A stretch of DNA of 64,000 bases from Actinopolyspora biskrensis (GTDB lineage: Bacteria; Actinomycetota; Actinomycetes; Mycobacteriales; Pseudonocardiaceae): NCBI RefSeq assembly GCF_013408175.1, contig NZ_JACBYW010000004.1, positions 257,583 to 321,582 on the forward strand, written 5' to 3'. Below, in pieces: positions 9,341 through 55,428 of the stretch. How positions within the stretch are numbered: position 1 is the stretch's first letter; each line of letters opens with the position of its first letter. The translations under genes and the position numbers were made by a program. The notes under the pieces are model-generated. The model was not told where the DNA came from. It did not search any database and saw nothing but the letters and a program-made list of their open reading frames with translations.

Positions 9341-9381
9341 CGTGCGGCCTGGTCGGGTGGCCGTCACGTGAGTCGGCGCCT
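9341..9381 (+). repeat. Left-end fragment of the dispersed structured repeat (fragment E)
   Basis: About 40 bp that match the first part of the repeat family described at 39515: a GGTCGGGTGGCC stretch, then CGTCACGTGAGTCGGCGCC. After this the match stops, so the inner hairpin is absent. It lies just after the aldo/keto reductase stop codon and next to a long unrelated hairpin. Same orientation as the 39-kb and 55-kb copies. Confidence 0.75.
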
Positions 9382-9394
9382 CGGGAACTTCCGA

Positions 9395-9454
9395 GCGTTT
9401 CGCGCGAAACCGTCATTCTGGAGTCGTTCCAGAAAGGACGGTTCGCGCGAAGCG
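9395..9454. other. Large nested inverted repeat / hairpin
   Basis: A 60-nt two-tier hairpin. The outer arms are TTCGCGCGAAaCCGTC and GACGGTTCGCGCGAA (one bulged A, with CG extensions at the base). The inner arms TTCTGGA and TCCAGAA close a five-base loop. There is no T-tract, so a simple intrinsic terminator is not certain. It sits between the aldo/keto reductase and the YrhK gene and could end transcription or act as a processing or binding site. Confidence 0.7.
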
Positions 9455-18054: not shown

Positions 18055-18621
18055 CGGTGCCCCGCTCTCCTTGCGGAATCCTTCCCGTCGTATTGGCGAT
18101 CAGCCGCTTCCCGGTGTCGGGCAGCCGCAGCGGGAGCCCACGGGAGGTTCCGCCGGCCGAGCACCCACGACGACCTGAACGGAGAAGCTCGATCAGTGGG
18201 GTGCTTCGTTCTTCTTCGTGCCGTATTTCCCAGTTGACGGTGTTCTCGGGGAAAGCTGCCAACACTTCGGACCTTGTTCGAGGTGCTCGGGCAGTCACAG
18301 TGGATAGGAAGTCGTTTTCGCAGTTCATCGCCCGTGCTGTTTGGCGGTTTGTCCGTTCGTGCGGGGCTTCGCCCGCCTTCCTGGAACTTCGCGTGGAACT
18401 TCCGTCCGGGAATTCCGTGAACGGACCGGACCGTTCCGTACGGGGGGCACGTACGGTGTCACGGATTGTTCTTCGTTCGTGGTGACCGGATCGTTTGGGC
18501 ACTGTTCATCCGCGTTTTCCGAGGTCATGCGAGTTCTTTTCGCTCGTGCGGCCGAGGGGAGGGATGCGGGTGAAGGACCGTTCCCGCCGCCTTTCCGGCG
18601 GCGTAATCACCAGGAGGAACG

Positions 18622-33108: not shown

Positions 33109-33180
33109 CGCCGTTGCTCGAGGTGCCCTCCAACGCTCCCAAGACGCCGACTCACGCGATGGCCACCCGGCCACGCACGC
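33109..33180 (-). repeat. Degenerate left-half copy of the dispersed structured repeat (copy D)
   Basis: Read on the minus strand, it starts GCGTGCGTGGCCGGGTGG, continues through CGTGAGTCGGCG, and includes GGAGGGCACCTCGAG, the left arm of the middle stem. The right arm and tail are missing. It lies between the MOSC gene and the TetR-linked aldo/keto reductase. Confidence 0.75.
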
Positions 33181-36480: not shown

Positions 36481-36506
36481 ACACATCGGTGAAATCACCG
36501 GTGTGT
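36481..36506. promoter_or_regulatory. 26-bp palindrome in the lipase/LuxR divergent region
   Basis: Arms ACACATCGGTGA and TCACCGGTGTGT match at 11 of 12 positions with a two-base centre. It lies 61 bp upstream of the lipase start, which fits an operator for a dimeric regulator. Confidence 0.6.
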
Positions 36507-36509
36507 GTT

Positions 36510-36529
36510 CTCCGGAAATTTTTCCGGAG
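36510..36529. promoter_or_regulatory. 20-bp palindrome adjacent to the previous one
   Basis: Perfect nine-base arms CTCCGGAAA and TTTCCGGAG around TT, three bases from the first dyad. It could be a second operator or a hairpin that insulates the divergent genes. Confidence 0.55.
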
Positions 36530-36758
36530 TACATCCGCGGTTGGTTCGAGCGAGCCACCCCGGGGCCGTCCTCTCCGGACCCTGCGCCCCTTCGGCGCGT
36601 CGGCGTCGAAACGCACCACCCGAGCCACCGGCACCGCCGCGGGAGGCCCCGCTCGTCGAGCAGCTACGAGGACCGAGCCGGAAAAACTCCAACGGGAAGA
36701 GTGCTTGATGCTCCGGTTGTACCTTTCCGGAATCGTGACCACCGGAGACACTGTTGCC

Positions 36759-39491
36759 ATGTCGGACGGGAACACCGGTCGGGCCGGACGGTCGACCCGG
36801 TTGCACGGCCGTGAGGACACAGTGGACGAGCTGCGGGAGCGGAGCGCCCGCGCCGCGGAAGGCAACGGCGCGGTCGTGGTGCTGACGGGACCGCGCGGAA
36901 GCGGGAAAACGACCCTGCTCGAGCGGGTGGCTCGTGATACCGGCTTCGCCGCCGTCGACCTGTGCGGAGTCCGCGCCGAGCGCGATCTCCCGCTGTCCGG
37001 GCTGGCTCGGCTGGCCACTTCGGACGACGCCGGTCCGGAAGCGGTGTGCTCGCCCGAACACGACGAGATCGCGTGCTGCACCGCGTTGCTCCGGGAGCTG
37101 ACCACCCGCTGTCGCCGCGGTCCCGTGCTCCTCCGCGTGGACGACGCCGGGTTGGTGGACCCCGCCTCGCTGCGGGTGCTGGGGCTGCTCGGACGCAGGC
37201 TCCACCGGTTGCCGCTGCTGCTCGTGTTCGCGGTGGAAACCGATCCGCTGGGGCGGGAGCCCGCGACGGAGCCGCTGGAGGGTTTCGACCGGATAGCCCT
37301 CGGACCGCTGGACGAGTGGGCCGGGGCGCGGCTGCTGCGCGAACGCGCGAGATGCTCGCCCGCTCCCGAGGCGGTCGAGGACGCGCTCGCTCGTTGCGGC
37401 GGGCTTCCGCTGGCCCTCTCGGAGGTCGCCGAGTCCCTCACCGCGGAACGGGCGGCCGGGCTCGCTCCTCCGCGACTTCCGCCGGACGGCAGGCTGCTCA
37501 CCGAAGCGGGAAACGAGCTGCGCGGGCTCGCGCCTTCGGCACGCAGGTTGGCGCTGCTGCTGGTGGTCGGGGAACGGTTGAGCCTGGAAACCGTGCACCG
37601 CGCGGCCCCCGAGGACTCGGCCGCCCCGGGAGCGTGGCGCGAACTCCTCGGTGCGGGGCTGGTGCACGTCTCCGAGCGGACGGTGCGCTTCTCCTGCGAG
37701 CTCGTGCGCGTCGGGCTGCTGGACCGGGTCTGTCCCGCGGAGTCACGGGAGGCGCACCTCCGGCTGGCCGAGGTCTTCGAACGCGACGGGGACCGGGCGA
37801 GGGCCGTCCGGCACCGCTGCGCGGCGGGGGAGGACCTCGGCGGTCGGCTCCCCGCGGAACTGGCCGAGGCCGCCGAAACGGCGAGCGGGGTCCGTGACCA
37901 CTCCGCTGCCTCCGAGCTGCACGAGCTGGCCGCGGCCCACTGCGCCGAGGGCGACGACAGGGCGGAGCGGCTGCTCGCGGCGGGGCGCGAGGCGTGGGCG
38001 GACGGGGATACGCGACGGGCCCGCGCCCTGTCCCGCCGTGCCGGTCCGCTGGTTCGCGAGGTGCGGACCCGTGCGGCGAACGAGCTGCTGCGCGGTGGGC
38101 TCGAGCTCTGCGACGGCGACCCGGACACGGCGCGGAGAAGCCTCACCACCGCGGCCGAGGCCCTGCTCGGCACCGACAGGAAAGCGGCGTTCCGGGCGCT
38201 GATGCTGGCCGGGGAGGCCAGCTGCGTCACCGGTGACTACCGGGGCTACTACGCGCTGGCCGAGCGGGCCGAGCAGTTGAGGTCCCGGGAGGAGACCGCC
38301 GAAGTCACGCTGATGCTCGAACACTTCGAGGGCATGTCGGCGACCTTCCGGGGCAGGCACGCGGCAGCCGTGCCCCCGCTGCGGCGGGTGGTGCGGCTGG
38401 CCGGCTCCGCGGTCGATCCCATGTCGGTCATCTGGGGCAGCCAGGCCGCGTTCACGCTCGGCCTGCTGGAGACCTCCCGCGAACTCGCCCGGCGGGCGCG
38501 CGGCCTCGCGCACCGGAACGGGGACACCGCTCAGGAACCGTGGGCCTGCGTCTACGGCTGTCTTTCCGCGCTGGCGCTGGACCGGTATGCCGAAGCCGAC
38601 GCCGCGGCTCTGGAGGGGCTGCGGCTGGCCAGGGCGTTCGGGCAGCGGAACCGGGCGGTCGACCACCTGGTCCTGTTGGCGCTGGTGGCCGCGCTGCGCG
38701 GAGATCTAGAAACGGTGCGGGTCCGCCTGGACCGGGCTTGCGCCGAGGAGATGTCCGGCAGGGGGCTCGGACGGCCGGACGCCTTCGTCAGCTGGGGAGC
38801 GGCCTGCGCCGAGCTCGCCCACGGCAGGCCGGCCGAGGCGACCAGACAGCTGCGGCTGATGAGTTCGGGAGCCGGTGGTTTCAACCCGGCGGTGGGGGTG
38901 CTCGCCGCTCCGCACTTCGTGGAGGCCGCCGTCTCCTGCGGGGAGTTCGAGAGCGCGGGGCGGTTGCTGACGGCTTTCGACCGCTGGGTGTCGTCCACCG
39001 AGAGCCCGGCGCGGCTGGCGCTGTCCCACCGGTGCCACGCGCTGCTCGCCCGGCGGACCTCCGAGGCGGAGGAGCGGTTCCGGACCGCTGTGGAGCTGCA
39101 CCGGGGCAGCGGGAGCTCACTGGAGCTGGCCAAGACCGAGCTGCTGTACGCCGGCCGGCTGCGCAGGGCGCGCAGACCCACCGACGCCAGGGAGCTGCTC
39201 GGCGAGGCCCACACCATCTTCCTCCGATACGGAGCCGAGAGGTGGGCGGACAGGGCGCGGGCCGAGCTCAGAGCCGCCGGACACACCGTCCCGGGAGGCG
39301 ACGGGGCCGCCGTCCCGGAGTTGACGGGACAGCAGTCCCGCATATCGGCCCTGGTGGCGGAGGGGGCGACCAACCGTGAGATAGCGGAGCGGCTCTGCAT
39401 CAGCGAACGCACCGTCGAACACCACCTGCGCAACGTTTTCGTCAAGCTCGGTGTGCGCTCCCGGGTAGAGCTGACCAGGATGCTGGGCTGA
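36759..39491 (+). CDS. LAL-type LuxR-family regulator (second)
   Basis: About 910 aa. AAA domain with Walker A GPRGSGKTT near residue 45 and Walker B-like LLRVDDAGL; a long helical repeat region; and a C-terminal LuxR HTH LVAEGATNREIAERLCISERTVEHHLRNV. I set the start at ATG 36759, about 15 residues before LHGRE. An ATG at 36708 with a purine-rich upstream stretch would add 17 residues. It shares no close operon partner. The divergent secreted lipase is a natural candidate target. Confidence 0.9.
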   Translation: MSDGNTGRAGRSTRLHGREDTVDELRERSARAAEGNGAVVVLTGPRGSGKTTLLERVARDTGFAAVDLCGVRAERDLPLSGLARLATSDDAGPEAVCSPEHDEIACCTALLRELTTRCRRGPVLLRVDDAGLVDPASLRVLGLLGRRLHRLPLLLVFAVETDPLGREPATEPLEGFDRIALGPLDEWAGARLLRERARCSPAPEAVEDALARCGGLPLALSEVAESLTAERAAGLAPPRLPPDGRLLTEAGNELRGLAPSARRLALLLVVGERLSLETVHRAAPEDSAAPGAWRELLGAGLVHVSERTVRFSCELVRVGLLDRVCPAESREAHLRLAEVFERDGDRARAVRHRCAAGEDLGGRLPAELAEAAETASGVRDHSAASELHELAAAHCAEGDDRAERLLAAGREAWADGDTRRARALSRRAGPLVREVRTRAANELLRGGLELCDGDPDTARRSLTTAAEALLGTDRKAAFRALMLAGEASCVTGDYRGYYALAERAEQLRSREETAEVTLMLEHFEGMSATFRGRHAAAVPPLRRVVRLAGSAVDPMSVIWGSQAAFTLGLLETSRELARRARGLAHRNGDTAQEPWACVYGCLSALALDRYAEADAAALEGLRLARAFGQRNRAVDHLVLLALVAALRGDLETVRVRLDRACAEEMSGRGLGRPDAFVSWGAACAELAHGRPAEATRQLRLMSSGAGGFNPAVGVLAAPHFVEAAVSCGEFESAGRLLTAFDRWVSSTESPARLALSHRCHALLARRTSEAEERFRTAVELHRGSGSSLELAKTELLYAGRLRRARRPTDARELLGEAHTIFLRYGAERWADRARAELRAAGHTVPGGDGAAVPELTGQQSRISALVAEGATNREIAERLCISERTVEHHLRNVFVKLGVRSRVELTRMLG

Positions 39492-39514: not shown

Positions 39515-39702
39515 TTCGCGTGGTTGGCCGGGTAGCCGTCACGTGAGTCGGGGCCTTGCTGCGTCGGAGGGCACCTCGAGTAGCGGCCTACGCCACGTGC
39601 CCTCCCCGCCTCGCGATGCATCCGACTCACGCACCGGGGTCCCCGCGCTGCGTAGGCTCCAAGCGCTCGGGGCAGACGAAGCCTTTTGCTAGAGGTTCTT
39701 GG
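39515..39702 (+). repeat. Dispersed structured repeat, copy A
   Basis: Fills most of the 330-bp gap between the LuxR and FNT genes. Outer stem GTGAGTCGG (39543-39551) pairs with CCGACTCAC (39622-39630). Middle stem GGAGGGCAC (39566-39574) pairs with GTGCCCTCC (39597-39605). The apical GTAG-CGGC-CTAC is conserved in all full copies. The tail ends near GAAGCCTTTTGC. Frames through it are not conserved between copies, so it is non-coding. Confidence 0.85.
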
Positions 39703-48427: not shown

Positions 48428-48948
48428 CGCTACTCCTCTCGTCGACGAAACAGAGTGAGGCGCTCGGGATGGATGCCGTCATAGGTTCGCAGCTGTTCAC
48501 TCGAGTGTGGTCGGCGGTGTGTGTTTTGGAGTCTTTCGTGTCAAGGACCATAGCGTGTGGCGCACGAATCCGCTCGATCGTTCGACAGTTCAGTATGTCG
48601 TGTATCACTCTCGGTGATCACCACTGCGGAACGTCCCCACTCGGGCCCAGGGAGCGCGGACAGGGCTGTCATCCGCTCGTCCGGTCCGGTCACCGGTCAA
48701 GCGGCGCGGCCGTCTTCCACCACCCGAGCAGGCCGATCCGCGGACTCTTCTGGAACTTCCGGCGAAAGGCTGCTTCCGACGCGAGCGCTTCAGCCCGCGC
48801 AGGACGAGAAGCTCCGGTGCGTGAGTCGGATGCATCGCAAGGCGGCAGGGCACCGTGGCGTAGGCCGCTACTCGAGGTGCCCTCCGACGCAGCAAGGCGC
48901 CGACTCACGTGACGGCTACCCGACCGGCGCGCGAAGTTCGGTCATGAG
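48428..48948. other. 520-bp gap holding a repeat copy
   Basis: Lies between two leftward genes. The right half is repeat copy B. The left 260 bp carries the GT-C gene promoter. No gene-like frame was seen. Confidence 0.6.
48690..48935 (-). repeat. Dispersed structured repeat, copy B
   Basis: Antiparallel copy, about 250 bp. On the plus strand the outer stem is GTGAGTCGG (48821-48829) with CCGACTCAC (48900-48908), and the middle stem GGGCACC (48848-48854) with GGTGCCC (48876-48882). The tail extends beyond copy A to a CTGCTCGGGTGG and GGCCGCGCCGC stretch shared with copy C. Confidence 0.85.
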
Positions 48949-55050: not shown

Positions 55051-55428
55051 CGGAGCTTTGCGTGCGTGGTCGGCTAGCCGTCACGTGAGTCGGCGCCCTG
55101 CTGCGTCGGGCCGCTCTTGAGTAGCGGCCTACGCGGCGAGCGGCCCGGCCTGGCAATGCATCCGACTCACGCGCCGGAGCTCCTCGTCCTGCTCGGGCTG
55201 AAGCACCCGCGTCGGGCGGAGCCTTCTGCCGGGAGTTCCCGGCGGGAGTTCGACGGCTCGGTTCGCTCGGGTGGTTGCGTAGGCTCGGAGCCCTGGGTTG
55301 AACGGAAGCCTTGCGCCGGAAGTTCCTGACCTCGCGGCAGTTCCGACTGCTCGGGTGGGGGAAAGCGGCCGCGCCGCCTGACCGGACGGGAGGGCGCCGG
55401 GCCCGGAGCGGCCCGGCGCCGAGCGGTC
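55051..55428. other. Gap filled by a repeat copy
   Basis: The 378 bp between the glycosyltransferase and ABM genes are almost entirely repeat copy C. No additional gene was seen. Confidence 0.6.
55056..55388 (+). repeat. Dispersed structured repeat, copy C (longest)
   Basis: About 330 bp. Outer stem GTGAGTCGG (55085-55093) and CCGACTCAC (55162-55170). Middle stem here is GGGCCGCTC (55108-55116) with GAGCGGCCC (55138-55146), different bases from copies A and B but still fully paired. The tail contains a partial internal duplication (GAGCCTTCTGCCGGGAGTTCC and AAGCCTTGCGCCGGAAGTTCC) and ends in the CTGCTCGGGTGG/GGCCGCGCCGC block shared with copy B. Confidence 0.85.

Follow-up and report, generated by a model that had tools for sequence, protein, structure and literature searches.

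The repeat at positions 39515..39702 of the window, as we call the whole 64-kb stretch of DNA that was analysed, was read in the initial annotation as either a structured RNA or a cruciform-forming mobile element, and the question is which of these it is and which strand of it folds. The analyses gave partial support to that reading, as the structure shows covariation and copies differ in presence between sister species, while movement by a transposase is a step that we infer. The explanation that fits best, at a probability of about 0.62, is a family of non-autonomous mobile elements whose conserved part is a strand-specific hairpin. L and G numbers are our handles for loci and genomes.

Copies in the window and in related genomes

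The three copies described from the window, here called A, B and C, and the two fragments were all located. The outer stem GTGAGTCGG/CCGACTCAC and the tip GTAG-CGGC-CTAC were confirmed in A, B and C. Copy A spans 39515..39702 on the plus strand, including left and right flanks that are common to other host-genome copies, and its hairpin core lies at 39525..39639. The arms of its outer stem are at 39542..39551 and 39622..39631, those of the middle stem at 39567..39574 and 39597..39604, and the tip is at 39580..39591, the point at which breaks and chimera junctions of other copies concentrate. The upstream ORF (36489..39491, plus strand), whose C-terminus looks like that of a LuxR-type regulator when read by eye, has a TGA stop that ends 33 nt before the core. 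Copy B is on the minus strand (core 48812..48926; with flanks 48690..48935, limits taken from the initial annotation) and follows a TAG stop by 22 nt. Copy C is on the plus strand (core 55067..55179; with flanks 55056..55388) and carries the end module of the right flank twice (55221-55239 and 55308-55326). Here the TGA stop of the gene, 16 nt before the core, sits in the left flank of the element, which is the source of the last codons. Both fragments are left halves: that at 9341..9381 (plus strand) is broken early in the left arm and is followed by the palindrome TTTCGCGCGAAA, and that at 33109..33180 lies on the minus strand and terminates at the hairpin tip.

The middle stem is indeed GGGCAC/GTGCCC in copies A and B and GGGCCGCTC/GAGCGGCCC in copy C, but this change is not an independent compensation inside the window, because the difference separates two subtypes, T1 (A and B) and T2 (C). 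On the strand of the gene, the folds of cores A, B and C beat all 200 shuffles (z -4.6, -3.75 and -4.3, respectively). The lack of a conserved open frame was also borne out, as all six frames are interrupted by stops, each of them in 11-47 of 55 host-genome copies.

The search of the whole host genome (4.95 Mb, 15 contigs) showed that the repeat is real and far more numerous than had been stated. There were 107 covariance-model matches at E<=0.01, of which 76, some of them partial, had E<1e-6, and the repeat is therefore not a product of chance. Partial copies are included in the larger number too, and a handful of the lowest-scoring matches represent a listed copy a second time, on its other strand. 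The left-half pattern (<=3 mismatches) occurred at 83 places and the right-half pattern at 51, with 0 and 1 for the reversed-pattern controls. Its small size, lack of coding capacity and abundance (76 matches at E<1e-6) are traits that the repeat has in common with MITEs.

The first covariance model described the gene strand, and a later one the other strand, after the reverse strand had proved more stable. With the reverse-strand model at E<=1e-5, matches were obtained in 63 of 390 genomes of the family (18 of 46 genera) and 34 of 394 genomes of the class, the host genome included, in a search with strict filters and at most 9 candidates scored per genome. Related hairpins extend beyond the Pseudonocardiales. 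The pattern TGCRTCCGACTCACGCNCCGG was detected in at least 96 stretches of named genomes; among the 80 matches listed, all are from A. righensis, A. mzabensis, A. alba or A. xinjiangensis, which makes the host Actinopolyspora-like. The sister species A. alba and A. righensis differ in the presence or absence of copies; in the comparison of L038 with L073, a copy is present in one species and missing from a close relative. The comparison of copy A with plasmids gave zero matches, and an exact 18-mer of the Streptomyces-type motif described below gave 0 matches in viral contigs.

The intergenic zones with copies are mosaics of several repeat families. In Actinopolyspora, these zones also hold two recurrent short palindromes, TTTCGCGCGAAA and CGATTTCGCGAGAAATCG (window 9397-9410; L032, L034, L057 and L070). 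A second repeat family, GGCGGAACCTC .. CGGGTAGCGACCTACAC .. GAGAACCCGC, was observed at 18105-18154 of the window (minus strand) and in many loci (e.g., L149, L070 1133-1229, L282-L284); it has a tip of the same kind, forms chimeras with the first family and has similar sequences in other genera. In the 5.26-Mb contig G072:C2, the stretch from 1.7 to 3.7 Mb makes up 38% of the length but holds only 8 of the 81 left-half matches, so that one part of the chromosome is avoided.

Fold, covariation and the folding strand

The conserved part is one imperfect hairpin of ~105 nt. In other genera of the family, the letters of the outer stem are wholly different and the pairing is kept (CCTCATTTGG/CCAAATGAGG, GTCTCAGGCGG/CCGCCTGA.. 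and GTCCCAGTTCG/CGAACTGGGAC). The covariance model and the test of covarying pairs revealed a conserved structure with strong covariation, as had been proposed, and on each of five measures the result was reached in 0 of 500 shuffles. Across 37 distinct reverse-strand rows, 93.4% of the cells were paired (81.6% in shuffles), 19 pairs (13.7) and 130 cells (43.0) were changed on both sides, further pair types numbered 45 (34.0) and the covariation score was 0.378 (0.168). When the partner was slid by 1-3 columns, pairing fell to 33-46%, although this control leans towards the structure, which was written by hand from folds of these very sequences. The rows were hand-picked, 37 out of 45 (L007, L086, L144, L151, L153, L177, L184 and L193 were left out), and consist of 18 from the host genome, 4 from three further species of Actinopolyspora, 1 from G117 and 14 from four genomes of other genera (10 G035, 2 G013, 1 G005 and 1 G069). 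Two pairs do not form consistently, as 24 of the 37 rows lack pair 6-104 and 11 lack pair 25-86. The strong evidence of covariation comes from the comparison between genera and not from within the window.

The left and right sides of the middle stem go together in the aligned rows, and both T1 and T2 were found in the host genome and in genus g36; they are two old subtypes. The rule is not absolute, since L020 is a hybrid with a T2 left and a T1 right side. As supposed, no match to a named RNA family was obtained: the Rfam search at gathering scores gave 0 matches in the window, and 16 loci (3 + 13) scanned at a lax E-value matched only microRNA and lncRNA models, far below the cut-off.

The reading as a structured element stands with its conserved covarying fold, and the better-folding strand has to be corrected to the antisense of the neighbouring gene in most cases. 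For the full core, copies A (-63.2 vs. -59.0 kcal/mol) and B (-62.0 vs. -56.5) fold better on the reverse strand, and copy C is a tie (-64.7 on both strands). The strand test was run on 55 of the 70 copies of the host genome, 72 of the 99 from named genomes and 19 of the 22 others. In all 19 of the last group, from G035, G069, G005, G013 and G117, the reverse strand folds better (mean -65.5 vs. -50.7 kcal/mol). The same holds for 42 of the 55 host-genome and 51 of the 72 named copies; without any ties, the strand of the gene is better in the other 13 and 21, and the preference is not universal. The consensus of the 37 aligned rows gave -43.7 for the reverse strand and -29.7 for the other.

The reverse strand folds better because an A.C on one strand is a G.U on the other. 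On the reverse strand, G.U outnumbers A.C by 43:3 in other genera and by 73:26 in Actinopolyspora, and for G117 the ratio is 1:0. Taken one position at a time, 13 pairs favour G.U and 6 the opposite, the extreme being pair 25-86, with A.C in 11 rows. Another 19 loci (16 outside Actinopolyspora and G013) likewise fold better in the orientation in which the model had detected them, with an advantage of just 0.7 kcal/mol in L281. The folded strand is somewhat more likely to be RNA than ssDNA, because wobble pairs are freely used and the inner segments are fixed; the breaks at the tip argue that a DNA hairpin forms or is joined there.

Gene ends, broken copies and elements with inverted-repeat ends

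The position relative to stop codons was analysed for the 70 strongest host-genome matches, with ORFs of >=100 codons and coding-like GC3. In 49 of the 70 copies, a stop in the same orientation precedes the core by 11-54 nt, as against 2 on the mirrored right side. The interval of 22-29 nt alone holds 31 stops (mirrored side, 0), and 5 copies have the stop at 16 nt, where the element itself provides the last codons and the stop. Within 75 nt upstream of the core, an ORF of the same strand ends in 51 of the 70 copies (mirrored side, 7), with TGA in 34, TAG in 14 and TAA in 3 of these 51.

Certain gene ends are occupied in more than one species. An ORF with the C-terminus ..AKCA[G/D]QGVLGGAYALV.. 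(as read) is followed by a copy in the host genome, A. alba and G117, and an ORF ending in ..CIGGGMGIATIVERT has a copy in G005 and G035, which represent two genera. The comparison of four orthologous sites showed cores that can be aligned between flanks that cannot; the same gene end is occupied in species whose flanking genes are ~80-84% identical, and the flanks of the core are no longer alignable. Some of these sites are old. Copies at the same gene end in different species could reflect retention at the level of the host.

Broken copies are common, so that changes breaking the stems, which would speak against a maintained structure, do occur. Outside the 65 strongest model matches of the host genome there are 30 left-half and 3 right-half places (of 83 and 51 in total), and chimeras were found as well. 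Pattern pairing gave solitary left and right halves in ratios of 31:11 in G072 and 13:10 in G097, so the bias varies between genomes. These counts are upper bounds, as the second arm is complete, though degenerate, at a few of the places, and the 16 right-only places among the named loci were not counted because those loci had been chosen with the right-half pattern. The half copies ending <=3 nt from the tip number 17 of 30 in the host genome and 11 of 31 in G072; after dropping 6 that are probably shared, 24 of 55 break at the tip, where ~5 would be expected if breaks were uniform. This count used five consensus strings, and earlier strings and penalties gave 13 of 30 for the host genome. 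In L034, L047, L241 and L243, the junction of chimeras with the second repeat family likewise lies, by eye, at the tip or close to it.

The far right flank is kept, by eye, in the half copies L172, L200, L210, L226 and L242, and the arm was therefore lost after insertion, by a later deletion. Near-identical sequence continues past the break in two species in L219/L238, L207/L248, L218/L234 and others, and the loss of the arm in such paired half elements is probably old and inherited. Because half copies persist, about six of them probably common to two species, the hosts appear to have no need for both arms there. Broken copies weigh against a host function of each copy more than against a function of the element. 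The clustering at the tip is an indication that hairpins of this kind arise in vivo and that cutting or exchange takes place at that point. SbcCD/Mre11 is described as attacking hairpins (PMC8053094), and one-armed copies may have arisen by an attack of this type on the hairpin loop, followed by end joining.

In the class, 10 of the 33 other genomes with matches were opened at one locus each. All 10 have a long hairpin with the inner motif TGCATCGCAAGGCGGA .. ACAACGCNGCGAGG, scored at <=3 mismatches per side, and unrelated stems. The folded strand of the Streptomyces type carries TGCATCGCAAGGCGGA ... GACAACGCNGCGAGGTGCC, and close variants of these inner segments are present in Actinopolyspora. 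Within the family, the motif was also found in L279, L288 and L289, and the inner segments of L280-L287 are more divergent by eye. In Streptomyces and other Actinomycetes, the motif is often inside elements of ~165 bp with inverted-repeat ends (TIRs). The TIR score was >=12 at 11 of 18 motif places (17 loci) and below that at 7, compared with 1 of 144 shifted controls. Without the plasmid loci L293-L296, which are not independent, as they were fetched by similarity to the TIR element of L273 (L296 has no motif match), it was 8 of 14.

The ends are of several types: CTAGTGCTGTGGCCGG (L273 and L293), CTAGGGTGTGTCTCCCAAGTC (L274 and L276), CTAGGCCCTGTCCGGGCGA (L275), AGGGCCTGTCTCCGGACTCGT (L271), TAGGGCCTGTCTGACACAT (L272), CCTAGGGGGTGTCGTTTGGATC (L295) and CTGGTGTCCTGAGTCGTAAGT (L288). 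GCCTGTC is common to some, and at least five look unrelated apart from CTAG. The L273 element matched 115 places in 53 plasmid records, 49 of the records being from Streptomyces, and many of the matches extend over only about half of the query. The TIR type CTAGTGCTGTGRCCGG of Streptomyces has ends that are shared with IS630-annotated elements lacking the hairpin. Six TIR places were opened: L298 and L301 are hairpin elements, while CTAGTGCTGTGGCCGG bounds the motif-free IS630-annotated elements L297, L300 and L302 (one end detected), and L299 has an annotated IS5-family transposase alongside, with one TIR detected. In L297, both TIRs flank a gene annotated as an IS630-family transposase, and the hairpin motif is absent. 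The sharing of ends with IS630 concerns one TIR type, in Streptomyces only. L300 (2001-3907) and L302 (2001-3640) are IS630-annotated transposons of Streptomyces plasmids with a passenger gene, for a methyltransferase and an Imm51 immunity protein, respectively.

CTAG stands at both ends in several relatives, and as it is palindromic, a part of the TIR and a target duplication look the same. The ends of TIR elements carry CTAG, which includes the stop TAG (L293 2504-2507; L297 1990-2030). CTAG is rare in high-GC coding DNA, and the CTAG ends are a possible reason why TIR elements land at gene ends. The idea that insertion at CTAG/TAG accounts for the placement after stop codons in general was rejected: it holds for the Streptomyces copy L293, in which the gene ends at 2507 within the CTAG at 2504-2507, but the host-genome copies mostly follow TGA.

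In the host genome, a TIR score of >=10 was reached in 2 of 50 copies, and the remaining 48 scored 5-8, like the controls. TIRs that were apparent by eye in G013 and G035 failed the ungapped test (scores 5-10, 14 copies), and a clean empty site with a target duplication was not found among the Actinopolyspora loci compared. The search of 12 genomes for the IS630-type domain DDE_3 gave 3 matches in the host genome and 10 in G292; the domain is present in 9 of the 12 and absent from G035, G013 and G097, all of which carry copies.

Mobility, rival explanations and known repeats

The findings can be brought together as follows. The hairpin packaged between TIRs is probably moved in trans by an IS630-type transposase, as the shared ends of one TIR type suggest. 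The Actinopolyspora form would have multiplied without TIRs, and most of its copies stand immediately behind a stop codon with the same orientation, a location in which little harm is done. The folded strand may be read by a protein, or by the tertiary fold of the RNA itself, which would leave the stems free to vary as long as they pair and the inner segments near-fixed. The fold would be maintained because the copies that still fold are those that spread, and dead copies would decay, often with the loss of one arm following a cut at the tip. Selection on the element is favoured because many broken copies are kept in the genomes, while between genera the fold persists by compensatory change. 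More tentatively, one structured RNA or ssDNA family may be a cassette that has repeatedly been packaged between the ends of different transposons across Actinomycetes, with the hairpin cargo as the selfish unit and a hitherto unknown partner that reads the folded strand.

The main rival, although an improbable one, is an RNA element at the 3' end that serves the host, in which the hairpin would terminate or shield the preceding gene's mRNA, as a terminator or exonuclease barrier, and be retained gene by gene. The stops at 11-54 nt (49 of 70) and 22-29 nt (31 of 70), with 2 and 0 on the mirrored side, would agree with such a role, as would sites common to species and even genera (L013/L085/L194; L185/L186) and the stable fold of the gene's strand. 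However, it is usually the other strand that folds better, 30 of the 83 left-half places persist without a strong full match, the subtype differs between T1 and T2 at one orthologous site (L013 vs. L085) and the orientation to the nearest stop varies in three Streptomyces loci (L293 and L298 vs. L301). A somewhat less probable reading is that of an ssDNA hairpin serving as a folded recombination site, similar to attC, for a tyrosine recombinase or the like. Integron attC sites fold on the bottom strand and lie just after stop codons, which resembles the strand-specific fold and fixed orientation found here, and breaks and exchanges concentrate at the tip. However, attC is not known to be cut at the tip, where breaks cluster in this family, and it has no long conserved inner segments of this kind; moreover, consistent attC core boxes were not seen by eye, nor were gene arrays in the loci read.

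Two further modes of movement have little to recommend them. Copies are intergenic, palindromic and in mosaics with other repeat families, and Y1_Tnp is present in 7 of 10 genomes, as would be expected of a REP/BIME-type repeat moved by a Y1 (RAYT) transposase; this reading is weakened, to the point of being very unlikely, by the lack of a Y1_Tnp match in G035, G013 and G038, all rich in copies, and by the single hairpin of ~105 nt in place of paired short REPs with a GTAG foot. Least probable of all is a retro-element spread by target-primed reverse transcription, with a precise left end and a lost right end. The solitary halves of the host genome (30:3) and G072 (31:11) would fit, but the ratio is just 13:10 in G097. 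Retrotransposition was rejected, as PF00078 (RVT_1) had no match in 10 of 10 genomes and several half copies retain the distal right flank.

The mobile hairpin family that we prefer resembles several known repeats in part. REP/BIME sequences associated with RAYT are likewise located 3' to genes, palindromic and arranged in mosaic arrays, and the differences are the inconsistent presence of a Y1 transposase and the single long hairpin. The mycobacterial MIRU, which reportedly insert at overlaps of stop and start codons and are direct repeats with small ORFs, are also actinobacterial repeats at stop codons with a fixed orientation, but the present repeat is a hairpin without a conserved ORF. With attC it has in common an imperfect hairpin after a stop codon, the conservation of structure over stem sequence and the better folding of one strand; it differs in the large conserved inner segments and in that neither arrays nor core boxes were seen.

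RUP of Streptococcus pneumoniae is a 107-bp intergenic repeat with 108 copies, which was proposed on indirect evidence to move by IS630-Spn1 at TA-containing targets, and it is stated to have no other signature of structure or function (PMC2229807). The Streptomyces relatives, of ~165 bp with CTAG ends and one TIR type shared with IS630-annotated elements, are similar to it, whereas the covarying hairpin here occurs in elements with several unrelated TIRs and, in Actinopolyspora, without TIRs. Correia/NEMIS, ERIC and CIR are small interspersed repeats whose transcripts form long stem-loops, but they belong to other hosts, and comparable covariation is not reported for them in the same passages (PMC2229807). 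Intergenic stem-loops of high stability are described as lying preferentially <=50 bp after stop codons in the genomes studied (PMC1590033); in contrast to these, the copies here are members of one homologous family and have a fixed orientation, and folding is usually better on the antisense strand.

A description of this repeat was not found in the open literature, to which the search was limited. The family looks like a mobile structured element that is apparently undescribed. Bacterial MITEs are usually defined by their ends, and the middle is arbitrary. Here, the middle is conserved and the ends differ: the stems covary between the genera of one family, and an inner motif is class-wide. 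This suggests a hitherto undescribed folded RNA or ssDNA that has its own partner. The finding also accounts for dozens of gene-end hairpins that one would otherwise take for terminators, and a covariance model is ready for use with this new family.
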